Assembly: GCA_030998225.1 (NCBI GenBank)
Contig: JAPYXD010000696.1
Coordinates: 868,001-932,000 of the forward strand
Direction of reading: 5' to 3'
Length of the DNA stretch: 64,000 nucleotides
From: Diplolepis rosae
Lineage: Eukaryota > Arthropoda > Insecta > Hymenoptera > Diplolepididae
Shown one piece after another: positions 20,875 through 64,000 of the stretch (position 1 is the first letter of the stretch; every line of letters begins with the position of its first letter). The position numbers and the translations under genes are program-made. A model generated the notes under the pieces. That model made no database searches, was not told where the DNA came from, and saw only the letters and a list, made by a program, of their open reading frames with translations.

Positions 20875-20876
20875 TT

Positions 20877-33833: not shown

Positions 33834-36106
33834 CAGAGATGAGTTGGGAGATTGCTAAAGTAATGTATTTAATTTCGAGTGATTTTCCGCAGCGCGCCCT
33901 ATTGCGAAATGCTCTTGGGAACTAAAATGAAAGGTTCATGCTACTACTTGAAGGGTAAAACAGAGCTACTGTTTATCACTTTTGCAGCGCCCCCAATTGC
34001 GTAAAGCTTTTTTCGTGGCTTTTTCGAACTAAAATTAAAGGTCCGCACTGCTACAATAATATGTGGGAGCACACACAATGAAGCGCGTCATGTCAGTGTA
34101 TCCCCACTAACTCGCTTCGATTTCACGCTGTCTGTTGTCGAGTTAAAATCAGAAATTGTATTTTTCTCGACTTCATGCAAAGGAGGCGTGAATAGACACA
34201 GAATTCAAAATTACGGAATATAACATTAAGAAAATTACACTTTTTTTCTATATACTTTGAAAAATATTGATCTGAAATAAGTATCTAAAAGATTTTGTGA
34301 AATTTTAAGATGATTTAAATACTTGGAAAATAATTATTTAATGAAATTTAAAGTCAATAAATGCTTAAATATTCGAAACAAAATATCGATATCAGCATTT
34401 TTTTAAAAATTATGTAGAGAATATTTTATAATAAGATATCATTCAAGATGAGATACAAGTTTCAAAAATGAAGGGTTTGAACATTTTCATAATAGGTAAC
34501 CACTTTTGTAAGAAAATTTCGATAAATAAATGTAAATAAAGTGTTTGCTGATTTAAGGTAGTTCATCCACAAAAATTAGACTTCAGGCAAAAATAGATAA
34601 ATTTTTTTTCAAGAATAGCAATATTATTATTGAAGAGATCATTTGGAAGAAAAGAGATTAGTTTCCAAGAAAAAAAATTTAAACATAAACAAATAATGCA
34701 TTTAACAAATTTTATTTTTACCCGGACTTGTTTTCTTATCGCTTCGAGCCAAATTTTAAAAAATGATGTGATTCTGTGAAATCACGGATAATTTTTTTAA
34801 GAAAAAATAAATTTTCCAAAACAAAATTCTTGTAAAAAAATTACTGAATTTGGTAAAAACTTATTCATTTTAGAAATATGGAAACGGCTAGGTTGTATTA
34901 GGTCTTTTGCCTGAAAAAAACGATTCTTGATTTATTTGTATCACATCATTTTTTTAAAAATTGGTATGAAACAATAAGAAAAAAAGTCTGGGTAAAAATA
35001 AAATTTGTTAAATTTATTTTTTCTAATGCTTCAAATATTTTTCTTGGAAATTAATCTCTTTTCTTTGAAATGATCTCTTCAATAATAATTTTTCTATATT
35101 TGGAAGAAAAATTAGCTTTTTTTATCTAAGATCTAATTTTTGAAGATAAACTACGAAGGAAGTACATAAATTATATCTGAATTCGCAATATGAATTTACA
35201 CCTTAAATTTTTTGAAGTATGAAACATCTTATACATATGGCAATTTCAATAGATGAATGTAAATGAAGTGTATGCTGATTTAAGAAAATACATAAATTAT
35301 TTGTGAAGTTACACCTCAAACTTTTCTTGATATGAAGCTAAGTCGACAAACCTTTACTAAAAAATAAAATACATTGAATAAAATGTTTTGGAATTTAACA
35401 TCTTTTACATGACAATTCGTATATATATATAAACTACCATCGGAAATTACAGAGGGACCTGGAGTTTCAACTTTCGTCGAAGTGTTTTATTTTATAGAAA
35501 AATATTGCAAAAGAAATTTCTATTTAGATTTAGATTTCAAAAGGTTTTTTTCAGTATGTCTTCATAGTGATTTCTTAACCTAATCAAAATATTTTTAGAA
35601 ATTCTTTCCTGGATTCTATCTTGAGGTTGAACAGAATTTAAAAAAATCATGCAATTTTTAAAATATGTAGCTTCTTCAAGAAGTTTTTAAAAATCGATGT
35701 ATATCATATTTTAATAAATTTAGAAATTTTTATCAAAATATTGATAGTTTGAATTTTTTGAATTCTTCAAATGAATGTAGTACAATCATCATTTGAAATT
35801 TGATTATTTTTCATTACCATGTTTGATTCTAGAGCAGAATCTAGCAGAAAAATTCCAAAAACATCTTAATTAGTTAGAAAAATACTATGAAAACTTACCT
35901 TTGAAATGAGACTACAGACTTTTCACAATGTTAATTAATTTTAGAGTTATTAATATTATTAAGAAAGATCTAAATTTGATGTCTTTTAGATTCTCATGAT
36001 ATGAGAATTAAAGTTTTGGTTTTATGCGAAAAATCATTTGTGGAATTTTCGTCAAATCTTTACGTTTTGAGATCCCTTGAGTCAGAAAAAACGGTTTTTA
36101 CGAAAG

Positions 36107-36137
<31 letters not shown>

Positions 36138-36796
36138 TCATCTGCAGTAGTAATAGGTCATATACTCAATAACTCTGGATAGAAAAAAATTGTCGGATTG
36201 AATTGAGCTTTGGCATACATTATCGCAGCTGAAAAAGTAAGGACAAGTTCGTTAACCAGCTACATCTGACAAAAATTGTCAAAATAGGAGCATTTTTTGT
36301 GTTTTTGAAAAAAACTTTATGAAAAAATCAAAAATTTTAAGACTGGTTTCTGATAATTCTCGTAAAGCTCTACTAATTATTCTCATAATATTATGCAATT
36401 AAAATAAAATTAAGAAAGTCACAGTATATTAAAACTTGAAAAAAGTCAATATCCATTTTCCAGTTAAATTATACGAGATACGAATAAAAGTTATGATAAA
36501 AAGTGGTTTACTACATAAAGATCTACAAGAGTAATAACTGTAAAGTGACATGCTTGATGACATGTCTGCTATTATATTGACCCAAAATTTACAGAATTTT
36601 TGTTAATTTTTTTGGCATTGGGTCAGCCTCTTTTTATTTTCTTCTATTAATATTATCAATGTTACTTACGATAAAAAACGCAAAAAAAGAGAGAAGGCAA
36701 ACGTTTCGGCTACATATGCGGGAGCCTTCTTCAGTGCCATAAATTAAAATATTAATTCAAAATTTTCGTAAAAGATAAAAATGTAAAAGATACCCA
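33834..36796 (+). mobile_element. Large TIR element, copy B (left part)
   Basis: It starts with cagagatgagttgggagatt, the same 32-bp end as the 7-kb element at 54711, and remains closely similar to 54711-57640 up to about 36796, including the (TCTG)n repeat at 36108-36136. Its right terminal repeat is not found in the window. The left end lies inside the gag of copy D. No transposase is encoded in this part. Confidence 0.75.
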
Positions 36797-44050: not shown

Positions 44051-45716
44051 GATAATTTACTGTCGGATAATGAAAAGACATACGAACAAACGGTTATGAT
44101 GGTTTATGAAGCCATCTTTTTAAAATATAAAAGAAAATTCTTTATGACAATAATCTAATATGGTGGCCCCAAAATGGCGGGTCTTGTCATCCTTTGAAAG
44201 CGAGACGTTGTTCGATAACGTCAAGGTTGTAGCCACTTGTAGTGAACTGAAATCAAAAATTTGTTTTTTATAGTCAAGTTAATAAAATTCCCTACGACTT
44301 GTACCTATTTCTAGAGAATTTTCATTAAAAATTATCCAATTCATGCATAATCAAAGAAAAAGTTCGATTTTACCCTCTTTTTATTAAAGTTTTTTCTTAT
44401 CAAACGACTATTATTTAACAATTGCTTATGTTTATTTTAGGTATAAGTCATACAAAAAATCATACTCTTCCAGGAACATTTCAGATCAAGTAAATCGGAT
44501 CAGTAGATCATGAGCTATGCTTGACGTTAGGATAAACAAAAAGGATTTCGAGATAAACGCGTTTAAAGTTGTAAGTCTCACATACACGTTCCAAGAGAAC
44601 CATCATCACTGGATACTCGAGTACTCAAGAAAAACCTTGCAATTGGCAAGCGAAAAATTCACCCCACCTTTTGTTATATTTCCAAGAGTGCTCTTTACGA
44701 TAGTGCCATATTAATTTTGACGAAATCATTTTTTTAAACAAATCTTGTCGAAATGACATTATAAACGTTCGGCGCATCAAAGACGCTTTAATAAGATAAA
44801 TATGCTGCGGATCGAAAAATCCTTTTGCACAAATATTCTAGGCATTCATACCTTTTATTTGATAAAAAAGAAAAAAAATCGATTATTTGAAAAAAAAAAA
44901 GAGGATATTACAATCGTTGATTACATGTGTTATAGTGGTAGTTAGGTAATTTGACAATTTTTTTTTTGATTGATAATAAATATTCAAACTTACAACATAA
45001 TGATTGTTGATGAAAAGAAGGTCAAACATTGTAAAATCTTATCGCTTAGATATAAAATAGTAAAGAGTAATTTCCAAGAATTACGATTGTTAATTGTATA
45101 CATTAGTAAAAATAAAATCTAAAAAGCCTTATAAATTATTGATTATACATAAAAGAAATTGACATATATAATATTAATAGAGATTAAAAATAATATTTAA
45201 GATCGTTGATTACATATATTAATTAATAGACGTCGTAACTTGGTACATCAAAGAGAAAAAACTTGGTTAAGTCTGAAATTGATTTCTTCAAATCATGGCA
45301 TTGCGATTGCTTATTATTACCTGTACAGGTTTCTGAAAATTAATTTCATGTACTTCAATTTGATTAGTGTATTAGGGTAAGTGTGGGTATTACTGTGGAT
45401 GCCCCAGTTACTGCGCTTTCAAATAAAACTAATGATATACATTGTTTTAAAGATATATAACGCTACAGAACAACTAAAAACAATCAATTTCTAATCCAAG
45501 CATAATAAGTATCAACGACTTATCAATAGTTACGATATTTGTAGCTAATTGATTGCAATTTGAAACTCTCATGTTCCCGATTCCCATAGTTTTAATGCTT
45601 AGATTTGTTGACAGGCCATGAACACATTCTGAAAAACTTGTTATAATTCCGTTTCTGAAAGTAAAATATTTATTGTGATATTACTTTCTGCAAAGTAAAT
45701 ATTTTATTTTTCTAAA
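44051..45716. other. Unassigned AT-rich DNA
   Basis: No gene or RNA is seen. The frame at 44517-44714 shows no recognisable domain. The region ends in the target site of copy C (tatt at 45717-45720). Confidence 0.4.
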
Positions 45717-45720
45717 TATT

Positions 45721-46163
45721 TGTTACGTCACAAGTACGTAAATACTTACCTTGATCGAAGATTCCTCGTTTTAAGTTAGGATCGAATGATCCTCGCTTAA
45801 GGATGAGGATAAGTCAATGAAAAGACACAATGATTATCAAATAATAAAAATTGAATTTATTAAAATAATTATAAATTGAAAATATTAAATTGCCGATACA
45901 ATTGATTTATAATTGGAGGCACAGGCTGGTTGGTTGGAAAGAGACAGAACATATATATAGAGAGAGAGAAGAGTTCGGTACCTTTATGATTTCCCTTTGT
46001 TTCCTTAAATATTCCTCACAGGTATGACTGCGATGCGATTCCCACAGGTGTGACTGCGAAGGAGTGAATATCCACAGGTGTGATAAGGACACAACAACTA
46101 TTCACTCTTTTTGGCACTGAGTCTAAGATCCTTTCAAGGATTGAAAAACGGACCACGGTAAAT
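45721..46163 (-). repeat. Copy C 3' LTR, truncated
   Basis: It matches 63172-63614 of the full LTR with a single visible difference (cttaaggat against cttagggat). The remaining 311 bp, which include the tgacgtca and TATA region, are missing, and the sequence passes directly into the env tail. A short shared word (cagag) near the junction suggests deletion by microhomology. The target duplication tatt lies just outside. Confidence 0.85.
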
Positions 46164-48143
46164 CAGAGGATAAAGAGTTGTGTTTGTATTATTGTGATCT
46201 TTACCTGAAGTAGTATTTGCGTAATACGAAGGACTTTTAGGTGCCTCTTTTGAGCTTTGTGGCGCTGAAGCTGTTAGCAGTTCTTGATGACTCTCAGCAG
46301 GAGGTCCAGGAGGTCGATGGGTACCTAAGTGTAATAAGAGGTTAGTGACCGAATCCCAGAAGGCGCCTAGTAGATGGAGAGACCATCCAAATAATCTGTG
46401 TAGCGCATATCCATGAATAATGGTATCAGCTATCAATTTAATCCCTCTAATTATTATTATTAATCCAATTAGGCCTGCACTAGTAGTTCCAAAACTTGTA
46501 AAAATTGTCCAAAATCTACCCCATGCGGATTCAGCAATTTTATCAATTACATCTTCATTAAATAAATTCGTTAATGATATTCCTTGATTAATAGTTGGAT
46601 GTCCTGTTATTTCTCTAGCTAAAGAATTTAGAATCATTGGTTTTTCTGCTGGAAACATAATATGATCTCGCAGTTTATCAAGATCAGATTGAGAATAAAT
46701 GCCACTTGTTGCTAAGGATGAAGGATTTGTGTATTTCCAGGTTGCTTTTGTGAGAGGTTTAACTATAGTTGGTGCTATGGATTCGACAGGATTTGGAAGT
46801 AATTTGTACCACGTTTCTCCAAAAAGGTACATTGGTGGAAGGAAAGAATTGCAATTTGTTTGGATACTTGATTTTGTTAATATATGAGTTCGTGGAGAAA
46901 GGAAAAAGGATTGATTTCCTCTAAATATTGGTAGTTGTAGATAACATTCTTCAGTTTTGCGATATTTTACTTCAACCGGTATACATTTTACGATATGTAC
47001 TACTTCTCCTGCAATTACTGACATATATCCTGGGCCTTTCATTAAATGATATGCAAATTCGTCTGGTGATTGGGTTGCTAAGGTTAATGTATTTCTAAAA
47101 ACTTGCTGTTCAAGTATGCATCGTTGAGTAAGAACATCGTGATAAAGTCTATTTACTTCAGTGCGTATGTGTCGTTCTACATATATAAATTTAGAATTGA
47201 CGTATGTGAAAATGTCCATATTTTGAACTTCTAAATGTTTATTTTCTAAAAATGAATTCCCAGGTCTGGTTTCAAAAATTAATAATTTTGGATGCTCAGT
47301 TTGTATTAAAACGTAACTGCAAACTGGTTTTCTTGTTTTTTCAGCCAGTACGAAGGTTATATCTTCAGTCGTTAAAGAATAAAAGGTTTCAGAATTGTCT
47401 GTCGTGTTGTCATATGTTTTATTTGCTGGTCCTTCATAAATAATTTCATATTTGTTAAAATTACATACGTCATTAGGTAATGTATCCCAGAATGTTTGTC
47501 CATATTCTACGTCTGTACAGAATGTGTCTGAAAGTGTGCATATTATTCCAGATCTTAATTGAATATTATTTGAATTTAAATGAATAGTCGCGTAATGTTC
47601 TTGTAAAGTTATTTTGAATATTGCTTGGACTACGACATTATTCCATGTTCCATATGGGTCAGAAAATTGTGTACCAGTACAGTCTCCGTTAGGTGTTACA
47701 GAACCTGCTAAAGTAACGCTATGAAATGAAGTTTCGTTTACTTTTAACTTTGATATCTGAAGAGAAGGGGTTACTAAAAATGTTCCTATTGTGTGCATTT
47801 GATTACATTGATCTCGTGTAACATCATGTATATATTCACTGTGGCCATTTGCTACTATGGAACTGTGAGAATGCATACCACAATGAGAGATAGCGCCTCG
47901 AATTTCTATTTTGCATTGTATTACTTTTGTATTTGAAAATCCAGTCAATTGTAAAAGTTGTATATAAGTTCTTTCAACATGTACTTGAGATCGAGGTAAA
48001 TCACATTCTCCTACCTCTAGTAAAGATAATGTCGTAATATTTGATTGATTTGAACCGCAATCGAATCCTATGATGGCGTAGACTGTTGTTATATAGTTGA
48101 AGTTGAAAGTGAGCAGTGCCAAAAGGAAGCCTCGTAATCCCAT
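46134..48143 (-). CDS. env: Envelope glycoprotein, chuvirid/mononegavirus-like, C-terminally truncated
   Basis: 669 residues. A signal peptide (MGLRGFLLALLTFN...) precedes IGFDCGSNQ and LSLLEVGECDLP, an N-terminal motif shared with chuvirid glycoproteins and env genes of some insect LTR elements. The ectodomain is rich in Cys and N-glycosylation sequons (NQS, NITT). A transmembrane helix near residues 549-575 (GLIGLIIIIRGIKLIAD) is followed by a hydrophobic stretch (583-606) and a cytoplasmic tail. The last residues are encoded by LTR sequence after the deletion, so the natural tail, which in copy D ends in a dsRBD-like domain, is gone. Role inferred: membrane fusion and entry. The family call is by motif. 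Confidence 0.7.
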   Translation of the reverse strand: MGLRGFLLALLTFNFNYITTVYAIIGFDCGSNQSNITTLSLLEVGECDLPRSQVHVERTYIQLLQLTGFSNTKVIQCKIEIRGAISHCGMHSHSSIVANGHSEYIHDVTRDQCNQMHTIGTFLVTPSLQISKLKVNETSFHSVTLAGSVTPNGDCTGTQFSDPYGTWNNVVVQAIFKITLQEHYATIHLNSNNIQLRSGIICTLSDTFCTDVEYGQTFWDTLPNDVCNFNKYEIIYEGPANKTYDNTTDNSETFYSLTTEDITFVLAEKTRKPVCSYVLIQTEHPKLLIFETRPGNSFLENKHLEVQNMDIFTYVNSKFIYVERHIRTEVNRLYHDVLTQRCILEQQVFRNTLTLATQSPDEFAYHLMKGPGYMSVIAGEVVHIVKCIPVEVKYRKTEECYLQLPIFRGNQSFFLSPRTHILTKSSIQTNCNSFLPPMYLFGETWYKLLPNPVESIAPTIVKPLTKATWKYTNPSSLATSGIYSQSDLDKLRDHIMFPAEKPMILNSLAREITGHPTINQGISLTNLFNEDVIDKIAESAWGRFWTIFTSFGTTSAGLIGLIIIIRGIKLIADTIIHGYALHRLFGWSLHLLGAFWDSVTNLLLHLGTHRPPGPPAESHQELLTASAPQSSKEAPKSPSYYANTTSGKDHNNTNTTLYPLIYRGPFFNP

Positions 48144-48160
48144 CTCTGGAAAAAGGAGGT
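48144..48160 (-). other. Candidate splice acceptor before env
   Basis: On the minus strand a pyrimidine tract (cctcctttttccag) ends in CAG, two bases before the env ATG. Errantivirus env genes are expressed from spliced RNA, so this is a plausible acceptor. The matching donor was not identified. Confidence 0.4.
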
Positions 48161-48254
48161 TCCAATTAGCAGCTTGCTTTGTAATATGAGAATAGAAAAA
48201 TGTTTTATATGTATATTTTTGGAGTTATTGATTTACTTTTTGTATTTTGCGTTC

Positions 48255-48536
48255 CTAGTTCATTATATCCAACATGTCGGCTATGACAATGTGATTTGAT
48301 AGCCGTAAACTGAGAATTAAATTTTTGTATGCGTCCGGTCCTCTTGTTTTGATTGTTGAAAAAATGTCTTTTATTATTTCTGGATTGTTTAGATTTCTGC
48401 TCCATGTGGGAATATTACAGTCGTCTTGATTAAAAATTCCGGTTTGAATTAAATATGGCCAGAGAGCTACCATGTCGATAAAACAGGGAACTATTTCAAT
48501 GAGATCATCTATGCGTTTGCGATGAATTTGTTCCAT
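48255..48536 (-). CDS. CARD-like small protein between pol and env
   Basis: The 93-residue product has the size of one caspase recruitment domain and its helix pattern. Helix 1 holds HRKRIDDLIEIV, helix 2 CFIDMVALWPYLIQTGIFNQ, helices 3 and 4 NPEIIKDIFSTIKTRG, and helix 5 PDAYKNLILSLR; a short helix 6 follows. The RGPxAYxxLIxxLR segment is close to the CARD of insect initiator caspases (Dronc type). CARDs pair with one another in apoptosome and immune complexes, so this could be a captured decoy or adaptor. It sits 241 bp after pol and 111 bp before env. Acceptor-like ttttcag and ttccag lie just upstream (48570-48541). No other copy is in the window. Confidence 0.65.
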   Translation of the reverse strand: MEQIHRKRIDDLIEIVPCFIDMVALWPYLIQTGIFNQDDCNIPTWSRNLNNPEIIKDIFSTIKTRGPDAYKNLILSLRLSNHIVIADMLDIMN

Positions 48537-48777
48537 TATATCTGGAATAATGTGTTATGTCTGAAAATTCATTTTTATTTTGTTTTATATATATTTTTTA
48601 TTTTATATATAAAACATATATTTTCATAAAAAAAAAATTTTATTTTTTATATTTTTACTATTTATCGACAAAATAAAATTTCTATATCTTATTTAAGTTG
48701 TATATGTATATATATAAATATATATGTATTTTTTTTTATAATTAAGGTACAGATATTTTGTTTCTATTTTTATTTAT
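48537..48777. other. AT-rich spacer between pol and the CARD-like ORF
   Basis: Low-complexity A/T sequence with (ta)n runs. It contains no gene but holds possible acceptor sites for a spliced CARD-like mRNA on the minus strand. Confidence 0.5.
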
Positions 48778-51700
48778 TTACTTTTGTACTTGCACATGTG
48801 AGCGTTTTAGTCTATTAATGTGGACAACAGTAGGTTTGCCTTTATAGCTTATTTTGACATTCCCTTTTCCTAACACTTCCAATATTTCATAAGGCCCTGT
48901 ATAATGGCTGTCAAGTTTTTTAATTTTTCCTCCTTTTAATAAAAACACGTAATCTCCAATTTTTACTTCTAAAGGACTTATTTTTTTGTCATAATATAAT
49001 TTCGATTTTTCTATTGCTGAAATAAGATTTTCTCTTGCTTGTGTTCGCATTTCATGTAGTTGTGTTACGAAATTAATTAAATAATCGTCATATGTTTGTA
49101 ATTTTTCTTGTTGTGATAAAGGTTCACTGGAAGGTTCACGAGCTAGTTTACCAAAAACCAATTCATAGGGTGTGCATTTTGTGCCTTCATGTACACTAGT
49201 ATTATATGAGAACATTGCTAGTTCAAGCCAATCATCCCATTCTGAATTTTTTGTAACAAATTGTTTGAGATATTCTCCTAAAACATGATGTGAACGTTCC
49301 AATGACCCGTTTGATTGAGGGTGAAATTCTGTGGTACGAAATTGTTTAATTCTAAAACGTTTTGCCAATCTTTTTAATAAATTACTTAAAAAATCTCTGC
49401 CTTGGTCAGTAAGTACTCCTTTCGGTGATCCAAATATGCAAATAAATTTTTTCACGAAAGCATCTGCTATCGTACTAGCTTGGTGATTAGGAAGAGGTAT
49501 TGCTAAGGAATATTTGGTAAAATTGTCTTGTATCGTTAGAATATATAAGTTACCAGATTTTGTTTCAGGTAGTGGACCAACAATGTCCATTGATATTTTT
49601 TCAAAAGCAGTAGTGGGTGTGTCAGTGATTACCATAGGGTTTTTTGTTTTGACTCTTATTAATTTTTTCAGTTGACATTGTAAACAGCCTTGAATATATT
49701 TTTGAATGTCTACTTTCATATTTTCCCAAAAAAATTTTTGGCGAATTCGGCTATAAGTTTTTGTAACGCCTTTATGGCCTCCTAATGCTGAAGAATGAGC
49801 TTCTTCAATTAAATGAGTTCGTTGTTCCTTTGTTGGATATTGCGTTATTCCATTGCAAACTATAATTTTTGTAGTTGAATTTGAAAAAATTGAATCGAAA
49901 ATTGATTTCACTTCTTCCCAAAGTATATGATTAATTATGGAAGTTTTTGATATACTAATAGATCGTAATTTAAATTTTTGAGATAATTCATGTAATGAAT
50001 GAATTGATAATTTTATATTATTTAAAGTTTCAGATAAATTATCTTTAGTTTCTTCTTCAATTGGAAGTGCAAAATGGTAGTAGTTTCCTTTTTTAATCTC
50101 TTTTGCTATCCCCTTTTGTAAATTTTTAAATTTTGGTAAAGTTTCACGTTTTTCTAAAGTTTTTGATCCGTTGTCGCGAGGAGTTCCATTTGTTGTAACA
50201 AAATATGCATAATTATCTTTTCGCATAGTTAATTGATCGCGACATTCAACTAAATTTTTCTTTGTTATAATTTTTTCTGTTTGAGGGTTTATAGGAGGAG
50301 GTTCTGGGGGTGGACGATTATAATTATCATGATCTTTATCGATTTTTTCAGGATTTATTTGAGATCTTCGGTTTAATCTCAAATTTTCTTCAAAATAAGG
50401 CTCTTCAAATTCTTCTTCCAATTTTTCTTCTTGGTTTTCTTCAAACTTCTCTTCAAAATTTTCCTCAAGATTGTCTTCAAAATTTTCTTCAAAATTCTGT
50501 TCGAAATTCTTTTCAAAATCGTCTTCAAGATCATCTTCAAAATTCTCTTCCCAATTTTCTTCATAATTTTCTCCATCATTTCCTTCATGTGAGGTTTCAA
50601 TGTCGTTGATTTCATCTTCTGAGGTTGAAAAATAATTCTCACTTTCTTCACTTTCAAATTCATTAATATTTTTTGGCTTCTTGGCATTCTTCTTCTTTTT
50701 ATTTTTTGCTTGAGATTGTTTCAAATAATCTAAATAATCAGGATCAGAGTCGGAATCTGATTCTACTTTTGTTCGGCTTCCCTTTTGCACATTTATTTCT
50801 GGTAATTCGTTTTCAAACATTTGTTTTCTTGGCCTACCTCTCTTTCTTTTTGTTTGAGAGGGAATATTTTTCAATTTTGTAAGTAGATTTTTTCTTGGCC
50901 TACCTCGTGGTTTTTTCATAAGAGGTTTAGAAGAAAAATTTTCGGCTAATTTTTCTTGAGTTTCGTTTCGATTCAAATTTTTTTCATTTTCTTGCTCTAT
51001 TCTCTTTTGAGCTCTCGTAGTAATAGTTTTCCATGATAAATTTTCGTATTTTTTGGAAAACACTGGACTTAATAAAAATATTGTCATAAAAATAAGTCTT
51101 GAAGCCATATTTTTGAATAAATTTGTGTATTTTAAAATATTCTTACCAATCTCACTGAGTGATTCTTCACTAAGGAATTCCGGAAAATATTCTGGAATTT
51201 TTGAGTCAATATTTAATATTTGGGCTTCCGGAATTTCGCTAAAATGATCTACGTCGTCTGGTACGATTTCTGGATTCAAGTTTCTTCGTTTTGAAGGTTT
51301 TACCTCATTTTTAGAGTTTTCTTGTTTTTTTCTTGTAAAAGTTTTCTTGGAAAACATTTTTTCTTGGGAAGTCATAAAAGTATCATTGGCGTCAACTTGT
51401 AAATATCTTGATTTCTCTTTGTTATCATCAATAGGGTTTCTTGAGAGAGCGTCTGCATTTACATTCATTTTTCCTGCTTTGTAAATTACATCAAAATCAT
51501 ATTCTGCGAGTTTCAATCTCCAACGTGAAACTCGTGAACAAGGGTCTTTAGAATTTTGAAACCAAACTAGAGGTTTGTGATCAGTCACGAAAGTAAATTT
51601 TCTCCCATACAAATAAGGACGAAAATGAGTTACACAAAATATTATAGCAAGAGCTTCTTTCTCATATGTATCATATTTTTTCTCAGTATCACTTAGACTA

Positions 51701-53547
51701 CGTGAAGCATATGCTATTGGCTCATCTTTACCTATTTTACCTTGTGATAAAATACCTCCTATTGCAAATCCTGAGGCATCTGTTGTGAGTATAAAAGGTT
51801 GAGAAAAATCAGGTCGTTGTAAAAGTGGTTCTTCACATAATTTTGCTTTTAAAATTTCGAAAGCTGCTTGTTGTTTTTCTGTCCAATTAAAAGGCGTATC
51901 TTTTTTCAGAAGTTGATTTAAAGGACTTGCAATTTTTGAAAATCCATCAATAAATCTTCTATAATATCCTGCTAAGCCTAAAAATTGTTTAACATTTTTC
52001 TGTGTTTTTGGGACTGGAAAGTTTTTTACAGCTATTATCTTTTTTGGATCTGGACGTACTCCATTTTTATCATTTATATGACCCAAATATCCTACTTCAG
52101 GTCGTAAAAATTCGCATTTGTCTGGTTGTAAGTGAAGCTTTGCTTTTCTAAGTCTTTCTGCTAAATTGTTGAATTTAATTTCGTGCTCTTCTAGAGTATT
52201 TGCATATGTAACTATGTCATCAAGATATACAAAAAGTTCCGTTCCAATTAATCCAGTTAATGTTAAATCCATTAATCTCTGAAATGTGGCAGGTGCAGTT
52301 TTTAAACCGAAAGGCATTCTATCGAATTCGTAATGACCGTGAGGTGTAGAAAACGCGGTTTTATGTGAGTCTTTTGGGTTCATTATTATATGGTGAAAAC
52401 CGGTAGCTAAATCAAACACTGAAAAATATTTTGCTGATCCTAAAGAATCAAGTATATCGTTTATATTAGGTAAAGGATACGAATCGCCAATTGTTTTTTC
52501 ATTTAATTTACGAAAATCAAGAACCATTCTCCATTTTATTTTTCCTTGAGAATCAGGTTTTTTAGGAACTATCCACACTGGAGTGTTATATGGTGATTGT
52601 GAGGGCTTGATTATTTTATTTTTTAATAATTCATCGACTTGTCTTGTAATTTCTTCCTTGTGAACTGGGGGAAATCTATATTGTCTTGAAAAAATTGGAG
52701 CGTCATCTACAGTTGGAATTGAATGTTGTAATACATTAGTAGCTTCAAGTGGTTCTCCTGGGATTTGAAATCTGTCTGCATTATTTTTAATTAATTTTTC
52801 TACATGTTCATATTCATCTTGATTTAAATGGTCTAATCGAAGAAGTTTTTTAATACATTCTACTCTGTCTTCGTCTGTTACATTATAAAATTTGCATGAG
52901 TTAATTAGAGAATTGTCAGTTTTTAAAAAGTTATTTAATATTTTACTTGATAAATCTTCGTTATTTGTTTGTTTGAAAGTAATTAAATTTCCAATTTGTT
53001 TATAACATTCTTGTTCTTCAAAGTCTTCTAAATTAACTAATGGGACGGATAATGTAATTGGGATTTCATTTGTGTTTGCAAATTTTAAATAGGCTTTTCC
53101 CTTGTGATTTTTTACAACTGCGTCACCTACGTAGACGCCATCTTGGATATGCAATCGAGGTACATACCCTTCACTCTTTTCTGTATTTTTTATATTAACA
53201 TAAAATGTTATAACTGTTCGAGCTGGAATAGTAAATGATTTGGTAGATTTAAAAGGGTAACAGTGGTTCTCAATTTCTAAGCATTTTGAAGTATAGTTTA
53301 CATTCACACTATTATCTTGAAAAAATTCTGATCCTAATACTCCATCTTCTTCTACTGTGACTTCATTCGGAATAATGTTAAATATCGTTGGATAACCAAA
53401 AATGTTTATTTTTACCTGTCCTAACGTGTAAAGTGGTAAATCATTAATTCCTGTAAGTTTCAATACGTTATGCCTATTTATTGGTACTTCAGGGTTGAGA
53501 ACCTTTTGTTTAATTAAATTTCGAGCAGCACCAGTATCAATCATCAT
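48778..53547 (-). CDS. pol: Gypsy Pol polyprotein with AT-hook/acidic linker
   Basis: 1589 residues without interruption. Protease has DTGA at 4-7. RT has QSPYNTPVWIVPKK and the catalytic YLDD at 441-444. RNase H has TTDASG near 587 and DHKPLVWF near 660. A linker of about 500 residues follows, with a hydrophobic MASRLIFMTIFLLSPVFS (about 814-831), AT-hooks RGRPRK at 881-886 and 903-908, and an E/F/N-rich acidic repeat (about 990-1055). Integrase has an HHCC region near 1250 and D1321, D1381 and E1417 (D-x35-E), then a GPY/F module near 1549. The linker is far longer than usual for Gypsy. All catalytic residues are present, so the enzyme part may be functional. The real start may lie upstream of Met1. 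Confidence 0.9.
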   Translation of the reverse strand: MMIDTGAARNLIKQKVLNPEVPINRHNVLKLTGINDLPLYTLGQVKINIFGYPTIFNIIPNEVTVEEDGVLGSEFFQDNSVNVNYTSKCLEIENHCYPFKSTKSFTIPARTVITFYVNIKNTEKSEGYVPRLHIQDGVYVGDAVVKNHKGKAYLKFANTNEIPITLSVPLVNLEDFEEQECYKQIGNLITFKQTNNEDLSSKILNNFLKTDNSLINSCKFYNVTDEDRVECIKKLLRLDHLNQDEYEHVEKLIKNNADRFQIPGEPLEATNVLQHSIPTVDDAPIFSRQYRFPPVHKEEITRQVDELLKNKIIKPSQSPYNTPVWIVPKKPDSQGKIKWRMVLDFRKLNEKTIGDSYPLPNINDILDSLGSAKYFSVFDLATGFHHIIMNPKDSHKTAFSTPHGHYEFDRMPFGLKTAPATFQRLMDLTLTGLIGTELFVYLDDIVTYANTLEEHEIKFNNLAERLRKAKLHLQPDKCEFLRPEVGYLGHINDKNGVRPDPKKIIAVKNFPVPKTQKNVKQFLGLAGYYRRFIDGFSKIASPLNQLLKKDTPFNWTEKQQAAFEILKAKLCEEPLLQRPDFSQPFILTTDASGFAIGGILSQGKIGKDEPIAYASRSLSDTEKKYDTYEKEALAIIFCVTHFRPYLYGRKFTFVTDHKPLVWFQNSKDPCSRVSRWRLKLAEYDFDVIYKAGKMNVNADALSRNPIDDNKEKSRYLQVDANDTFMTSQEKMFSKKTFTRKKQENSKNEVKPSKRRNLNPEIVPDDVDHFSEIPEAQILNIDSKIPEYFPEFLSEESLSEIGKNILKYTNLFKNMASRLIFMTIFLLSPVFSKKYENLSWKTITTRAQKRIEQENEKNLNRNETQEKLAENFSSKPLMKKPRGRPRKNLLTKLKNIPSQTKRKRGRPRKQMFENELPEINVQKGSRTKVESDSDSDPDYLDYLKQSQAKNKKKKNAKKPKNINEFESEESENYFSTSEDEINDIETSHEGNDGENYEENWEENFEDDLEDDFEKNFEQNFEENFEDNLEENFEEKFEENQEEKLEEEFEEPYFEENLRLNRRSQINPEKIDKDHDNYNRPPPEPPPINPQTEKIITKKNLVECRDQLTMRKDNYAYFVTTNGTPRDNGSKTLEKRETLPKFKNLQKGIAKEIKKGNYYHFALPIEEETKDNLSETLNNIKLSIHSLHELSQKFKLRSISISKTSIINHILWEEVKSIFDSIFSNSTTKIIVCNGITQYPTKEQRTHLIEEAHSSALGGHKGVTKTYSRIRQKFFWENMKVDIQKYIQGCLQCQLKKLIRVKTKNPMVITDTPTTAFEKISMDIVGPLPETKSGNLYILTIQDNFTKYSLAIPLPNHQASTIADAFVKKFICIFGSPKGVLTDQGRDFLSNLLKRLAKRFRIKQFRTTEFHPQSNGSLERSHHVLGEYLKQFVTKNSEWDDWLELAMFSYNTSVHEGTKCTPYELVFGKLAREPSSEPLSQQEKLQTYDDYLINFVTQLHEMRTQARENLISAIEKSKLYYDKKISPLEVKIGDYVFLLKGGKIKKLDSHYTGPYEILEVLGKGNVKISYKGKPTVVHINRLKRSHVQVQK

Positions 53548-53665
53548 GTGTGTTGAATTTTTAGGCCTTCCGTTGATATTATAATTGATGGAATTGAAGT
53601 GGACTTTGAAATATTTATTGTTGTTGTTGTATGATCGTTAGAAGTGGATGCCAGTGGTTCTCGAT
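53548..53665 (-). other. Gag-pol junction
   Basis: Gag ends with a stop at 53666-53668. Pol is in the +1 frame relative to gag. Its open frame begins only after a stop at about 53637, so gag and pol do not overlap. Copy A has the same arrangement, which argues that it is a family feature and not a recent mutation. Confidence 0.5.
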
Positions 53666-54655
53666 TTATGCTTTCCTCAGTGCACCCGTGCTGGGGAGAG
53701 CTTTGGAGTTTTCCCGATGAGCTGTTTGTGATTGGCTATTTGGTCGTATCTTGCAGTCTCGTACTAAATGACCGGGTTTTTTACAATAATTGCAAACTAC
53801 TTCAGTATAATTTGAATTTTGTTGATTATTATTATTTTGTAAAAACCTATATTCATATGGTTTATTTCGATTTTGAGACTGTCCTAAGTTAAAGTTTTGA
53901 TACTGTCCTGGATTCCATTGTCTATTATTATTATTAACATTATTGTTATTATTGTAAAAATTTCTAGGAAAATTATTATTATTGTTGTATCTTTGTTGTA
54001 AAACATTATTATTATTGTTTTTATAATTATTATTTCTATTTTGCAAATTATTATTGTTATTGTTATTAAAATTATAATTTTTATTTCTTAAAAAATTGTT
54101 ATTCGGAAAATTATTGTAATTGTTTCTTGCAAAATTATTATTATTATTACTTCTTTGACCATTGAAATTACTATATCCTTGTTGGTTAGGACGCAAAAAA
54201 TTTTTTTGTTTATTATTAAAAACTGCATCTTGAGCTTTACTTAAATGAAAACATTTTTCAGTTGTGTGACCTGGTTTTTTACAAATTAAACAAATAGTTT
54301 TGTTTTCAAGTGCTACGTTAAATCGGGTTGTTTTATTATTTTTATTATTAGATGATTCGTCACTTTTTGAATAATCCATATTTTTATTTCTTCGTAGTGC
54401 GGAATTTGCAGCTAATCTTCGTTCTATATCAATACTGTCGCTAATAACTTCTTTAAAAGTATCCTTTTCTTCAACACGAATTTCTAACTCAGGACGCAAA
54501 CCACGTATAAAACATTGAATTACGTCTTTTTCAAGGTTTACTTTAAAATTATTATCTACCTGACCATTATTATTGAGCCTGTGAGCATCTTCGATTTTGT
54601 CGGCAATTTCTTTTATCCTAGCAGCATAGGAAAGTACATTTTCTCTTTCCCACAT
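53666..54655 (-). pseudogene. gag: Copy C gag, capsid C-terminus and nucleocapsid
   Basis: 329 residues. The capsid C-terminal part (VIQCFIRGLRPELEIRVEEK, DSIDIERRLAANS) is followed by a first knuckle CLICKKPGHTTEKC, a very Asn-rich region (runs of N with R, F and Y) and a second knuckle CNYCKKPGHLVRDC. The Met at 54655 is internal. The N-terminal capsid present in copy A (PLFDGSNLPLSHFIEG) has been deleted here between about 54680 and 54690, and the 7-kb TIR element then separates this part from the gag start at 62260. Confidence 0.8.
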
Positions 54656-56844
54656 AAATGTATTACCTAATTCTCCCTGTAACTTTTGTCGTCGTGGCTA
54701 TCGTTGTTACCAGAGATGAGTTGGGAGATTGCTAAAGTAATGTATTTGATTTCGAGTGATTTTCCGCAGCGCGCCCTATTGCGAAATGCTCTTGGGAACT
54801 AAAATGAAAAGTTCATGCTACTACTTGAAGGGTAAAACAGAGCTACTGTTTATCACTTTTGCAGCGCCCCCAATTGCGTACAGCTTTTTCGGATCTTTTT
54901 CGAACTAAAATTAAAGGTCCGCGCTGTTATAATAACATGTGGGAGCACACACAATGAAGCGCGTCATGTCAGTGTATCCCCACTAACTTGCTTCGATTTC
55001 ACGCTGTCGGTTGTCGAGTTAAAATCAGAAATTGTATTTTTCTCGACTTCATGCAAAGGAGGCGCGAAATAGACTCAGAATTCAAAATTACGGAATATAA
55101 CATTAAAAAAATTACACTTTTTTCTATATACTTTGAAAAATATTGATCTGAAATAAGTATCTAAAAGATTTTGTGAAATTTTAAGATGATTTAAATACTT
55201 GAAAAATAATTTTTTAATGAAATTTAAAATCAATAAATGCTTAAAGATTCGAAATAAAATATCGATTTCAGCATTTTTTTTTAAATTATGTAGAGAATAT
55301 TTTATAATAAGATATCATTCAAGATGAAATACAAGTTTAAAAAATGAAGGGTTTGAACATTTTTGTAATAGGTAACATCTTTGGCATGAAAATTTCGATA
55401 AATAAATGTAAATGAAGTTTTTGCTGATTTCAGGTAGTTCATCCACAAAAATTAGACTTCAGGCAAAAATAGATAAATTTTTTTCATGAATAGCAATATT
55501 ATGATTGAAGAGATCATTTGGAAGAAAAGAGATTAGTTTCCAAGAAAAAAAATTAAAACATAAAAAAATAATTCATTTAACAAATTTTATTTTTAGCCGG
55601 ACTTGATTTCTTATCGCTTCATACCAAATTTTAGAAAATGATGTGATTCTGTGAAATCACGGATAATTTTTTTAAGAAAAAGGCTTTCTACAACTTAACC
55701 GTTTCCATTTTTTGGAAATTATAATAAATTCTTTAATGGCTAAAAGCATTAAAAATAAAATTTCCAAAACAAAATTCTTGTAAAAAAATTACTGAATTTG
55801 GTAAAAACTTATTCATTTTAGAAATATGGAAACGGCTAGGTTGTATTAGGTCTTTTTCCTGAAAAAACGATTCTTGATTTATTTGAATCACATCATTTTT
55901 TTTTTTAATTTGGTTTGAAGCGATAAGAAAAAAAGTCGGGGTAAAAATAAAATTTGTTAAATTTATTTTTTCTTATGCTTCAAATATTTTTCTTGGAAAT
56001 TAATCTCTTTTCTTTGAAAATGATCTCTTCAATAATAATTTTTCTATTTTTGGAAGCAAAATTATCTTTTCTTACCTAAGACATATGGCAATTTCAATAG
56101 ATGAATGTAAATGAAGTGTTTGCTGATTTAAGAAAATACATAAATTGTATGTGAATTTACACCTCAAACTTTTCTTGATATGAAGCTAAGTCGACAAACG
56201 GTTGCTAAAAAATAAAATACATTGAATACAATTTTTTGGAATTTAACATCTTTTACATGACAATTCGTATGTATACATATATATAAACTACCATCGGAAA
56301 TTACAGATTGACCTGGAGTTTCAACTTTCGTCAAAGTGTTTTATTTTATAGAAAGATATTACAAAAGAAATTTTAATTTAGATTTAGATTTCAAAAGGTT
56401 TTTTCAGTATGTCTTCATAGTGATTTCTTAACCTAATCAAAATATTTTTAGAAATTCTTTTCTGGATTCTATCTTGGGGTTGAACAGAATTCAAAAAAGT
56501 CATGCAATTTTTAAAATATGTAGCTTCTTCAGAAGTTTTTAAAAATCGACGTATATCATATTTTAATAAATTTAGAAATTTTTATCAAAATATTGATAGT
56601 TTGGATTTTTTGAATTCTTCAAATGAATGTAGTACAATCATCATTTGAAATTTGATGATTTTTCATTACCATCTTTGATTCTAGAGCAGAATCTAGCAGA
56701 AAAATTCCAAAAACATCTTAATTAGTTAGAAAAATAATATGCAAACTTACCTTTGAAATGAGACTACAGACTTTTGACAATGTTAATTAATTTTAGAGTT
56801 ATTAATATTATTAAGAAAGATCTAAATTTGATGTCTTCTAGAGT

Positions 56845-56959
56845 CTCATCATATGAGAATTAAGGTTTTGGTTTTATGTGAAAAATAATTTTCGGAATTT
56901 TCGTCAAATCTTTACGTTTTGAAATCCCCTGAGTCAGAAAAAACGGTTTTTTCGAAAGT

Positions 56960-56992
<33 letters not shown>

Positions 56993-57373
56993 CAGTAGTA
57001 ATAGGTCATATACTCGATAACTCTGGATAGAAAAAAATTGTCGGATTGAATTGAGCTTATGCATACATTATCGCAGCTGAAAAAGTAAAGACAAGTTCGT
57101 TAACCAGCTACATCCGACAAAAATTGTCAAAATAGGAGCATTTTTTGTGTTTTTGAAAAAAACTTTATGAAAAAACCAAAACTTTTAAGACTGGTTTCTG
57201 ATAATTCTCGTAAATCTCTACTAATTATCCTGATAATATTTTGCAATTAAAATAAATTTAAGAAAGTTACAGTATATTAAAACTTGAAAAAAGTCAATAT
57301 CCATTTTCCAGTTAAATTATACGAGATACGAATAAAAGTTATGATAAAAAATGGTTTACTACATAAAGATCTA
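56845..57373 (+). repeat. Dispersed AT-rich repeat, left half, with (TCTG)n
   Basis: It matches 9615-10140 and 35985-36540. It opens with atatgagaattaaggttttg, carries (TCTG)n at 56959-56987 and 'acaagttcgttaaccagcta'. It stops at ataaagatctacaa, which is repeated at 58791, where the right half resumes. About 1.4 kb has therefore been inserted with a duplication of about 13 bp. Confidence 0.55.
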
Positions 57374-57880
57374 CAACAGTAATAACTGTAAAGTGACATG
57401 TTTGATGACATGTCTGCTATTATATTGACCCAAAATTCACAGAATTTTTGTTAATTTCTCATTTTTTTGGCATTGGGTCAGCCTCTTTTTATTTTCTTCT
57501 ATTAATATTATCAATGCTACCTACGATAAAAAACGCAAAAAAAGAGAGAAGGCAAACGTTTCGGCCGCATATGGGGGCCCTCTTCAGTGCCATAAATTAA
57601 AAGATTAATTCAAAATTTTCGTAAAAGATAAAAATGTAGAAGATAGTTAAAATAAGGATAATAATGAAACTCAAAATCTTATCTCATTGCTTGCAATTCA
57701 AAATGAAGAAGTCCAGTAAGCAACAACACGAATTGGAAAAAATATGTAGAATTCACTGTATATAGAAAACCGGATAAAATGAACGAAAAACTTAGAAATT
57801 TGTAAACAACAGGCTAGAATTTTTGTTTGTTTTTTTCCCTTTATAAAGAACGGATGACCATTTCTTCGACCGTTATATTA
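57374..57880. other. Inserted stretch with a 'gaaacgtttgcc' module
   Basis: This is shared with 36541-36796. On the minus strand it contains ctgaagagggccc...gcggccgaaacgtttgcc (about 57545-57595), similar to modules seen in the untranslated ends of Penelope-like elements. No reverse transcriptase is present. From about 57650 to 57880 nothing is recognised. Confidence 0.35.
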
Positions 57881-58794
57881 TTATATCATATATAGGTTTG
57901 GTTTCGTCGGTCTTAGGGTCAATAAAACAACATTAAAGAAAAATTATTGAATCAATTTATATCAATAAAAATATTATTTCAATAAATTGTAAGGCTGAAA
58001 TTATGAATATTAATCGAATTTGCCATGGCATTATTTAACATATGATTTTCAAGTTTGTATTCTCAAGCTTTAGCACGCTTTTCATTCACGGAGAAACTTT
58101 TTATATCAATTTTTACTATAGTATTTTTCAATTTAGGGAAAGACGTATCACTTTGAGGATTTTTTGTTAGTAAAAATACTAAACTTTATTATAATGATAT
58201 GAAACTTCAGCATAGTCCATAGCAAATTTTACTATAGTTTATACTAAAGTTTCATATCATTATTATAAAGTTTAGTATTTTTACTAACAAAAATTCCCAA
58301 AGTCATAAGTTTTTCCCTAAATTGAAAAATACTATAGTAAAAATTGATATAAAAAGTTTCTCCGTGTTGGTGAATTTAATTCAATTTATCGTATCTTCGT
58401 CTCTCTATCCTAAAGTTTGCGTTGCTTCATCGGATTGTACACACCGTATTATAATGTAATTTAAAATTATTGAAGCCCTCAATCTTTGAGGCTTTAATTT
58501 TAATAACATTTTCAAGAATAAGACTGAATCTTCATGTGTGTTTTCGTTTTTTTGTAATTTATGTAAGTACTTATTTATTATATCAACACAACATATAAAA
58601 TAGTTCTCTTTGGAAAAAGAATTTTGATGGTAAATTGATTTGTTCAATTTTTAGTGACATATATATTCCTTGAAAAAGACCCGCAGTGAGGTTGAAACAT
58701 AGGAGAATTTTTGACCAAATATAATGAAGGAGTTTTTTATAGAATGTTGTTTTATTGACCGCAAGACCGACGAAACCAAACCTATATGATATAA
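57881..58794. mobile_element. 0.9-kb TIR element with a central palindrome
   Basis: Ends of about 45 bp are inverted copies: ataggtttggtttcgtcggt near 57893, and its reverse complement ending near 58785. Inside, 58085-58366 is a near-perfect palindrome (arms about 128 bp, acggagaaactttttatatc at the outside). The 80-codon minus-strand frame at 58405-58647 has no recognised domain. It is inserted within the larger TIR element. Confidence 0.6.
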
Positions 58795-59424
58795 AGATCT
58801 ACAAGTTTGAACTGCAACATTTTTTCATAAGATGTATATTTTTCTTTTTAATTAAAAAAAAAATACCATTGAAAATCCGAAATTCAATTTTTTAACTAAA
58901 ATATGTGAAATACGAAAAAAACGTAAGAATGGAAAATTGTTCGTTTCAATAATATATACAAATATTTTCAGATATAGTTTCTAATAAAACGTATATTTTT
59001 CATTATAATTTTAAAAAATACGATTAAAATTCAAAAATTTCATTATTTGAACAAAATATGTAACATACGAAAAAAACGTTAAGCTAGAAAATTATTTGCC
59101 TAAATGAGGTCTACAAATTCTCAGTAGGACATTTTTTGGCAAGATATATATTTCATGTTTTGGTTTTAAAAAATACAATATTGAAAATAAAAAATTCCAT
59201 TTTTGAACCAAAATATGTGTGATACAAAATAAGCGATAATACAAAAATTCGTTTTCTCTAAAAGAGTCTATGAATTCTCCTCCTTTTTTAAATATTTGGA
59301 AGAAAATAGATTTTCTGTAATCTTGTAAATTATTAGAAAGTTACAGAAATGTATACAGAAAATCGAGCGCGAAGCGCAAGTTTCATGATAAGAATGTGTT
59401 CTTTAAGGCTGATAGAGCTTTAAG
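58794..59424 (+). repeat. Dispersed AT-rich repeat, right half
   Basis: This continues the repeat broken at 57373. Blocks match 10125-10735 and 1160-1430. It ends with gagcgcgaagcgcaagtttc and ttctttaaggctgatagagc. There is no coding frame. Confidence 0.55.
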
Positions 59425-60689
59425 TAAATTGAATTTCTTTTTTCATTTGAAATCAAAAACAAATTTAGTAACTTTGAGAAAATGTAATTCACATCGATAA
59501 TATTATAAAATTGACTTGAACTTAAGTATCAAATTACAAGTAATAAATTTAAATAATAATGAAACAGGACTTATATCGACCCTTAGTATTAATATTCAAA
59601 TATTGTTCATGTTCTTAGTTGGCTTTACGGTCCGAAGAATATAAGACCGAGTGCGACGAACGAATCGCGCGCCCCAGGCGCGCTCAAACTTGCAAGCGAA
59701 GCGCGCCATGAGAATGTGCCCACGAAGCGGGCAGATTTTTTGTAGTATATTTTTACAAAATTGATATTATGCTCTTAACTTGGGATTATTAGAAGCAAAA
59801 CTGTGTTAACTTTTATTTTAGCATCATGAAAAAATGTTAACCTTTTATTATAAAAATTAAGTTACTTTAACAATAGCTTAAATAACATATGAACCTCTAA
59901 TTTCCGATGGAAGTGTCTGTGTAAAGAAAGGTTTTAAATATTACAAAAAAAGCATAAATTGTATTTGAATTCGCATGCGATCTTGCACTTTGAGATTTAT
60001 TCGGTGTGAAGTAAATTCGACAAATCATTACTATAAAGTAAAATACTTGAAAAAACATTTTCAAAATATTTAATATTTTTACACGAATGTACATACAGTC
60101 GACCGGCAATCGAAATACCCGGGCTTGAAACCCGGTGCATTCGAAAACGTCTTTTTTCCACAGAAAGATTTTAAATTCTTTAAACTTAAGTATGTAACTA
60201 TAAACGTATTAATATGTTTAATGTTTTTAAATTATTCAATGTTTTATTAAAAGAATTAAAATAGTAAATTGTAATGACCCTTGATTTAATTTATAATAGA
60301 CTTCTTCATTTACGGACCCTAAAGCCAATGCAATTTATTAAAACATTTTGAATTCAAAATAATACTGAATGTTTGAGTATAAAAGGTTTAAATATTTGAA
60401 AAATACATAAATTATATCAAAATTAGCACACGAAATCGTACACTAACTTTAATTTGGTATGAAGTAAAATTGAAAATAAATCCTTTAGAATAAAACATTT
60501 TGAAAAAAACTTTCAGAATACATAACATATTATAAATGAAAATTTCAATATATAAGTATAAATAAAAGGTTTGATTATTCAAAAGTAAAATATATTATAT
60601 CTAATATTTTATCGAACAGCACACTTTAAGATTTCATTGGTATGGGGATACACATTTTTAAAATTACACGACTTTTTGTAACATGTTCA
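59425..60689. other. Interior of the 7-kb TIR element without a gene
   Basis: AT-rich, with one GC-richer patch at about 59635-59735 containing another gcgaagcgcgccatgagaat motif. No gene or RNA is seen. The 70-codon frame at 59897-60109 shows no domain. Confidence 0.4.
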
Positions 60690-61743: not shown

Positions 61744-61775
61744 CATTACTTTAGCAATCTCCCAACTCATCTCTG

Positions 61776-62260
61776 TTGTTACTAATTATAGATTCGCGTG
61801 CCAATGAGGTTTCCAATCTTTCTTTCAAAGTTTTATTATCTACTGTTATTACTGTTGAGCTTAGCAAATTGAATTCGTCAAAATAAGATAATTCATTCGT
61901 TAGAGTTTGATCTTGATTACTGGATCCTGTTACAATGCTTAAATCTGGACAGAAACTTGAATGAAACCCGCTAGTTTTTTCTGAATTTTCACGTGATATA
62001 TTTTGACTATTAATTAGAGTCTTGTCTAAACTTGAATCATCTAACTTAAGAGTGTTATCTAATTCTTGTTCTGTAGGGATTGGATCAGGGATATTTTGGC
62101 ATTTATTATCAGTTGAATATTCTCTATTTCTAATTGGTTTTATTTTTAAATTACCCTTTTGATTCAAATCTACTATTTTTGCAAGCTGACTATCTTGTTT
62201 AGCTTGACTACGTGTTATAACTTTCGGGGTAGATTCTAAAGGGATATTTGGTTTTGACAT
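61776..62260 (-). pseudogene. gag: Copy C gag, N-terminal part
   Basis: The frame starts at Met 62260 (MSKPNIPLESTPKV) and runs about 160 residues of charged, Ser/Asn-rich sequence with no zinc knuckle, ending at the TIR element junction. Homologous sequence in copy A precedes the capsid, so this is the pre-capsid region of gag. The last few codons of the open frame (61775-61751) lie in the inserted element's terminal repeat and are not native. Confidence 0.7.
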
Positions 62261-63140: not shown

Positions 63141-63157
63141 TCCCGGCCGATGCACCA
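63141..63157 (-). other. Primer-binding site, tRNA-Gly type
   Basis: Plus-strand tcccggccgatgcacca equals the 3' end of animal tRNA-Gly(GCC) including CCA (17 of 17 bases by recall). It lies 14 bp inside the 5' LTR. The same site occurs at 39569-39585. It indicates tRNA-Gly priming of minus-strand DNA. Confidence 0.7.
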
Positions 63158-63171
63158 GAAAAAAGGAAGTA

Positions 63172-63925
63172 TGTTACGTCACAAGTACGTAAATACTTAC
63201 CTTGATCGAAGATTCCTCGTTTTAAGTTAGGATCGAATGATCCTCGCTTAGGGATGAGGATAAGTCAATGAAAAGACACAATGATTATCAAATAATAAAA
63301 ATTGAATTTATTAAAATAATTATAAATTGAAAATATTAAATTGCCGATACAATTGATTTATAATTGGAGGCACAGGCTGGTTGGTTGGAAAGAGACAGAA
63401 CATATATATAGAGAGAGAGAAGAGTTCGGTACCTTTATGATTTCCCTTTGTTTCCTTAAATATTCCTCACAGGTATGACTGCGATGCGATTCCCACAGGT
63501 GTGACTGCGAAGGAGTGAATATCCACAGGTGTGATAAGGACACAACAACTATTCACTCTTTTTGGCACTGAGTCTAAGATCCTTTCAAGGATTGAAAAAC
63601 GGACCACGGTAAATTTATGACTCTCGGGTCTTTACACTGTCAAACTGCACGGTATAATTGTCTCACGCTGAGAATCCCTTTTAGTTTTTTAGAAAATCCC
63701 GCACTTAAATACTGCTCACAAGACTAGTTTTCCCTTGGCGGTGTGTCCTTTTTATATTATATTTTTTGGTGACGTCACGCGTTGCGCAGTCTCCCGCTGC
63801 GTGTGACGTAGTTATACCTCTCTTTTCAATAGGTGGTTTTCTCTCTCTTTTAGTAATTTCCCCAGATTTCTCTCTAGACCTAGCCTGTGCCTATAGTACA
63901 TTCGAATGCGTCGCGGGACGTGACA
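63172..63925 (-). repeat. Copy C 5' LTR, complete
   Basis: 754 bp. On the plus strand it runs from tgttacgtcaca to cgggacgtgaca, giving TG...CA ends. It contains three diverged copies of a 'cccacaggtgtgactgcgaa' word (63460-63540). Read on the minus strand, the promoter-like region near 63748-63777 precedes most of the LTR, so U3 is at the high-coordinate end. Short frames within it (for example 63543-63358) also occur in the 3' LTR and are not genes. Confidence 0.9.
63748..63777 (-). promoter_or_regulatory. LTR promoter: CRE-like site and TATA box
   Basis: On the minus strand tgacgtca (63770-63777), a CREB/ATF-type palindrome, is followed by tataatataaaaagg (TATA box, 63748-63762). A second half-site, tgacgta, lies at 63804-63810. 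Copy A conserves the arrangement (21951-21990). Transcription would start about 25-30 bp further on, near 63720. Confidence 0.5.
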
Positions 63926-63929
63926 TATT

Positions 63930-64000
63930 TATGCAAAATAACAAAAAATACGTTCTTTAATCATTTTTTTACCAAAACAGTATTTGGTACATGATTTTCA
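63930..64000. other. Right flank of copy C
   Basis: AT-rich sequence after the target duplication. Too short to assign. Confidence 0.5.

Follow-up and report, generated by a model that had tools for sequence, protein, structure and literature searches.

A stretch of 64,000 nucleotides from the hymenopteran Diplolepis rosae (GenBank assembly GCA_030998225.1, contig JAPYXD010000696.1, positions 868,001 to 932,000; hereafter the window) carries a Ty3/Gypsy retroelement bounded by long terminal repeats (LTRs), and between its pol and env genes lies an open reading frame (ORF) whose product is, by predicted fold and family profiles, a caspase recruitment domain (CARD). A preliminary description, made from the letters alone, had pointed to this frame of 93 codons; the 634-base pol-env gap holds no longer ATG frame on its sense strand (Table 1). 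ATG frames of at least 93 codons arose in 10 of 5000 first-order Markov sequences with the composition of the gap and in 167 of 5000 random sequences with that of the ORF itself; length alone is only moderately unusual, so it is conservation that carries the case for a real gene. Conservation across copies, not length, rules out a chance ORF; a remnant of the pol or env frame is ruled out as well, since the ORF can be aligned with CARD genes of host-like type. Its product consists of the CARD alone, with no other Pfam match: a stop codon ends it and env is the next gene, an arrangement different from that of an initiator caspase, in which a caspase domain follows the CARD. It is thus a viral CARD-only protein in the sense of a stand-alone CARD encoded, between pol and env, by a virus-like element.

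The same description had read a six-helix death fold of CARD type from the translation, with RGPDAYKNLILSLR at the position of CARD helix 5. The best AlphaFold2 model, built on an alignment of 33 relatives (pLDDT 91), has six helices (residues 3-19, 22-31, 42-47, 52-64, 67-79 and 83-90), and RGPDAYKNLILSLR, at residues 65-78, falls on the fifth; a model from the single sequence was too poor and was set aside. Comparison of the predicted structure with known ones returned CARDs or CARD-containing chains, those of caspase-9, Apaf-1 and Dronc, in all ten best rows.

Family profiles agree with the fold. Profile A2, which is wider than profile A1 and takes in host-type exon frames, matches CED-3, caspase-9 and Dronc significantly and ranks them first; the best other CARDs, RAIDD (0.08) and NLRC4 (0.23), are not significant. 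With A1 the only natural match in the PDB is Dronc, at a non-significant E of 1.1; two designed repeat proteins that outscored it were taken as chance. Against the Pfam CARD family PF00619 the window copy alone scores 17.5 bits, under the 23.9 cut-off, which is passed by 5 of the 9 relatives scored: L054, an element copy with the gene in the same slot (26.6), P0067 (26.6), P0058 (25.1) and two host-like loci described below, L063 (28.6) and L065 (27.8). P0041, P0057, P0064 and P0066 do not reach it.

Spread among element copies, selection and element layout

A protein search found 52 of 53 candidates related to the CARD at E<=0.1, and a search with profile A1 found 119 of 728 at E<=10, among them P0057 from Belonocnema kinseyi and P0058 from Leptopilina boulardi. 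Because some relatives are fused to pol-like (P0045, P0048, P0055) or env-like sequence (P0049, P0091), the same neighbours are suggested in those contigs. Among viral contigs, neither the CARD nor env had a confirmed relative.

The genome of D. rosae itself (757.7 Mb in 428 contigs) is rich in copies. The best 150 of 1186 candidates, a choice that favours intact copies, all align with the CARD over at least 92 of its 93 residues, and 146 are free of stops. Thirty loci drawn from these 150, the window copy included, have env adjoining in every case and pol in 28; in 20 further CARD loci the figures are 20 and 18. A sample blind to the CARD was taken from env: every eighth, starting from the fourth, of the best 150 of 1288 env N-terminal matches, giving 19 stretches. 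The CARD is present in 18, open and gap-free in 12 and altered by the gain or loss of one or two bases in 6; the remaining stretch has no CARD match. Many of the best 150 env matches have long open frames.

A second, diverged element family (L053, L054, L058, L059), whose loci were chosen by likeness to the CARD P0057, carries a CARD with 57-62% identity to that of the window, C-terminal pol pieces with 73-87% and N-terminal env pieces with 63-84%, the lowest env figure being that of one short piece. Pol was found at three of these four loci and env at three; an ATG opens the CARD in L053, L054 and L059, the start is lost in L058, and the L053 frame extends beyond the usual end. By these comparisons the CARD changes faster than most of the neighbouring genes, yet its frame is open and its slot unchanged. 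Nearer to the window copy stands a sister subfamily (L055, L057, L060-L062 and many more matches) with dozens of copies that score alike for the CARD; at the five loci read the CARD is 89-91% identical to the window's, and the subfamily is probably a recent burst. The CARD is a family-wide element gene, not a local oddity.

The preliminary description had looked to related Gypsy copies for an ORF at the same place under purifying selection, and both were found in this genome: two diverged families have the ORF in the pol-env interval, and it has been held by selection, to judge from the substitutions. Between the window CARD and the four diverged loci the NG86 method gave dN (nonsynonymous) of 0.27-0.31 and dS (synonymous) of 1.8-2.4, the latter saturated, and a ratio of 0.12-0.17, with bootstrap limits between 0.07 and 0.40 from the 128-157 of 200 replicates that were defined; YN00 returned no value for these pairs. 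Against the sister subfamily the ratios, which rest on L055, L057 and, for NG86 only, L061, were 0.20 (0.08-0.55), 0.15 (0.05-0.34) and 0.18 by NG86, and 0.32 and 0.25 for the first two by YN00.

Variation within the family supplied a second measure, for which we relied on the env-chosen set. Variants relative to the window that occur in at least 2 of the 12 gap-free copies comprise 13 synonymous and 11 nonsynonymous changes (P=0.0008 for an expected nonsynonymous share of 0.77), those in a single copy 2 and 6 (P=0.57); the counts are small and the shared variants not fully independent. The 30 CARD-chosen loci, a set biased towards conservation by its choice on CARD similarity, gave 10 synonymous and 4 nonsynonymous shared variants and 16 and 17 private ones. 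In a neutral simulation applied to 20 homologues of 93 residues the close copies mostly look neutral; P0041, P0053 and P0056 exceed all 1000 simulations, and P0024 all but one, in residue similarity together with an open frame, and P0060, P0079 and others are unremarkable in residue similarity. By these sequence data, purifying selection acts on the CARD while the element is spreading; because shared variants are depleted of amino-acid changes and private ones are not, the gene would be needed during spread and decay after insertion.

Acceptor-like sites stand directly upstream of the ATGs of both CARD (TTATTCCAG) and env (CCTTTTTCCAG). That before the CARD, in the form CCAG followed by ATATAATG, is conserved at 26 of 30 loci and that before env, TTTTTCCAGAGATGGG, is present in 24 of 30; since they precede both ATGs, CARD and env may be expressed from spliced messages.

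Table 1. Features of the element in the window, and the two host-like CARD loci elsewhere in the genome
Feature	Position	Strand	Remarks
LTR retroelement, Ty3/Gypsy type		-	order gag, pol, CARD ORF, env between LTRs
3' LTR	45721..46163	-	extent common to both LTR copies
env	46134..48143	-	669 aa; matched over its full length by PF24664 Monjiviricetes_fusion, E 9.2e-247
candidate 3' splice acceptor CCTTTTTCCAG	48146..48156	-	directly upstream of env ATG; consensus only
CARD-only ORF	48255..48536	-	ATG start, 93 aa plus stop; between pol and env
site of the phase-0 intron of host-like relatives	48398..48399	-	codons 46/47; uninterrupted in the element
candidate 3' splice acceptor TTATTCCAG	48542..48550	-	directly upstream of CARD ATG; consensus only
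pol	48778..53547	-	Pfam domains RT, RNase H, integrase in Gypsy order
gag part with zinc knuckle	53666..54655	-	
probable gag N-terminal ORF	61751..62260	-	inferred from alignment with second copy; separated from the other gag part by an insertion
5' LTR	63172..63614	-	extent common to both LTR copies
host-like locus L065	contig C395, L065 1256-1650		two exons; reads as 101-aa CARD-only gene; 89-base intron GTAAGC...TTTCAG
host-like locus L063	contig C95, L063 1180-1737		two CARD exons; 159-base intron GTGAGT...TTTACAG

The element is of Ty3/Gypsy type by its LTRs, identical at 442 of 443 bases, and by the pol order reverse transcriptase (RT), RNase H, integrase. Of the earlier label, Gypsy/errantivirus, the first half therefore stands; the second finds no support in env, for which PF24664 alone matched in Pfam at E<=1, in place of the baculovirus-F-type envelope of errantiviruses proper. 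No clear target-site duplication was seen at the LTR ends, and an Rfam scan of 45000-64000 gave no match at gathering scores.

Other observations concern the layout only. Gag of the window copy is split by some 7 kb of repetitive sequence (about 54656-61750), parts of which recur at 33834-36792; a second copy (about 13849-22130) is free of it, its positions 20533 and 20947 matching 54532 and 61775. Both copies carry a long insert in pol between RNase H and the integrase zinc finger, at residues of about 684-1238 in the window copy, with AT-hook-like and acidic repeats. Fourteen bases in from the 5' LTR, TGGTGCATCGGCCGGGAA (63140-63157, minus strand) resembles a primer binding site, presumably for tRNA-Gly. 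Positions 63615-63925, outside the 5' LTR, match the flank of another copy (21822-22130): the true LTR may extend past the stretch common to both ends, or the flank may itself be repeated.

Host-like CARD genes and the origin of the element gene

Querying the genome with a host-type exon, with 150 matches scored and 12 loci cut out, revealed two loci, L063 and L065, unlike the element copies; the labels "host-like" and "element" were assigned in this analysis. Both loci have an intron in phase 0 after codon 46, where element copies have no insert, and neither has a match to element pol, env or LTR in the 29 kb of sequence around it. The same site stands out in other relatives: P0068 has an in-frame 27-residue insert at this site, of which P0057 is the uninterrupted counterpart, and in exon-2-like frames such as P0096, P0097, P0110 and P0115 similarity starts at the intron boundary. 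Each of the two host-like CARDs is identical to the window CARD at 46 of 93 positions, the Dronc CARD of the fly at 27 of 80, and each as sole query ranks caspase-9 first, with weak E-values of 0.05-0.06.

The genome has eight matches to the caspase domain PF00656, and two of them share the strand of L063 and sit 11.6 kb downstream of it; none is on the contig of L065. The stronger of the two (103 bits) has four internal stop codons, which may reflect introns or decay; the best match of the p20 piece is CED-3 (1.3e-6). The second exon frame of L063 meets a stop unless a donor precedes it. From these sequences we infer a Dronc/CED-3-like gene of which L063 encodes the CARD, and in L065 a paralogue that has the CARD only. 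A host-like caspase piece in L080 (about 2395-2649) ends in ...FIFQMCR followed by a stop codon, where a caspase usually has its QACRG active site. A query with P0057 and filler, for which longer proteins qualified, yielded 33 candidates for a longer host relative, none at E<=10. The relatives of L065 in B. kinseyi and L. boulardi, P0057 and P0058, are named only as uncharacterized protein, and these wasps may themselves encode a CARD-only regulator.

The CARD is a domain widespread in animals. Together with the shared intron and the nearby caspase, this makes capture of a spliced host transcript by the element the simplest origin, and on the sequences a likely one; one capture or several would fit. 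That the element gene is ancestral to the host CARD genes, with the intron gained later, seems quite improbable to us. The trees are compatible with it: without outgroup, 15 host-like and 22 element rows are split by a branch with support 87/74, below the star of the tool, which fits either direction, and addition of Dronc, caspase-9 and CED-3, on long branches, gives no resolution and leaves direction unfixed. Against it stand the animal-wide occurrence of CARDs, the recurrence of the same intron site in L063, L065, P0068 and the exon-2-like frames, and the position of one host-like locus ahead of a caspase match on its own strand.

Precedents and possible function

CARD proteins occur in large DNA viruses of vertebrates; among them the 91-residue GIV-CARD of grouper iridovirus reportedly inhibits apoptosis and reduces caspase-8 and -9 activity (PMC4457926). 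A structure search of BFVD with the element CARD gave as best matches the small CARDs of cod iridovirus and of lymphocystis disease virus 3, each with probability 0.97 and E 0.4, and the gammaherpesvirus E10 of equine herpesvirus 2 (probability 0.90), none at E<=0.001. The likeness has its bounds: these iridoviruses have large DNA genomes and infect fish, the two models that aligned best share only 10% identity, and their CARDs have no retroelement carrier and no link to a spliced host exon seen in this analysis; E10, from a vertebrate DNA virus, has 311 residues and is more than a CARD. The prodomain CARDs of Dronc, CED-3 and caspase-9 are relatives in both sequence and fold, but are joined to a caspase domain where the element CARD stands alone.

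For the envelope there are partial parallels. Anakin, a mosquito retroelement with a chuvirus glycoprotein (PMC7642597), is likewise an LTR element with a glycoprotein from a negative-strand RNA virus, but it is BEL-Pao, not Gypsy, and the abstract of that paper does not mention a CARD. The Jingchuvirales glycoprotein endogenous viral elements (EVEs) of Hymenoptera treated in PMC10084718 adjoin Gypsy fragments, and that paper gives no clear evidence that Gypsy took them up; the window env is probably of the same broad glycoprotein kind, also near Gypsy sequence, but unlike those EVEs it lies inside LTRs and adjoins a CARD gene. Searches of the open-licence PMC literature listed no paper that describes a CARD for an LTR retroelement or a retrovirus of insects; the main text of PMC13172572 has no word starting with "card" or "caspase", and PMC13228809, which combines gypsy and caspase recruitment, deals with sea cucumber gene families and is irrelevant here. 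The viral CARD-only protein is a known kind; what appears to be new is its carrier, its occurrence in an insect and the presence of host-like genes to which it can be traced.

We consider it about an even chance that the CARD was captured through a spliced transcript of initiator-caspase type and acts as a CARD-only decoy of the apoptosome. The donor would be a CARD gene of the Dronc/CED-3/caspase-9 kind or a CARD-only relative, taken up as a spliced copy by an LTR retroelement with a viral-type envelope. The protein would likely be made from its own spliced message, as the acceptor-like site at its ATG, like that of env, suggests. Because it is a lone CARD of initiator-caspase type, competition for the CARD of the Apaf-1-type adaptor is to be expected: bound to that of Dark, or to that of the initiator caspase, the decoy would stop the apoptosome from recruiting or activating caspase, and infected or expressing cells would survive long enough for the element to spread. 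The fuller claim, that a retrovirus lineage with an envelope from a negative-strand RNA virus took up such a host CARD and kept it across families as a dedicated apoptosome inhibitor, falls a little short of an even chance.

Other roles can be weighed against that of apoptosome decoy. The CARD might join or cap a different CARD assembly of the host, one that serves antiviral or stress signalling; this is unlikely, as the profiles put CED-3, caspase-9 and Dronc first, with RAIDD and NLRC4 below significance, and the L063 and L065 CARDs, for all their weak E-values, also turn first to caspase-9. Since CARDs in general polymerise, the protein could instead nucleate caspase activation or assist assembly of a particle or complex of the element, but killing the cell would be of little gain to a mobile element and the gene occupies an accessory-gene slot between pol and env, not a place within gag, so that we regard such a role as rather improbable. 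The broken copies of the env-chosen sample, six with small indels and one without a match, and the neutral look of close copies after insertion, both in simulation and in private variants, would suit a functionless captured fragment carried along as a passenger; a frame still open at 57-62% identity in the diverged family, dN/dS of 0.12-0.17 and the depletion of amino-acid changes from shared variants make this highly improbable.

The host CARD-only gene, with the CARD locus upstream of a caspase in the same genome, would form a second subject, as a possible endogenous regulator. If the apoptosome-decoy reading of the element gene is true, the element CARD would be a natural probe for the Dark-Dronc apoptosome and an LTR retroelement would be seen to carry a death-fold gene of immune evasion. 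It would also provide a testable case of programmed cell death restraining insect endogenous retroviruses, and caspase-driven cell death would be a real barrier to the retroviruses of insects.
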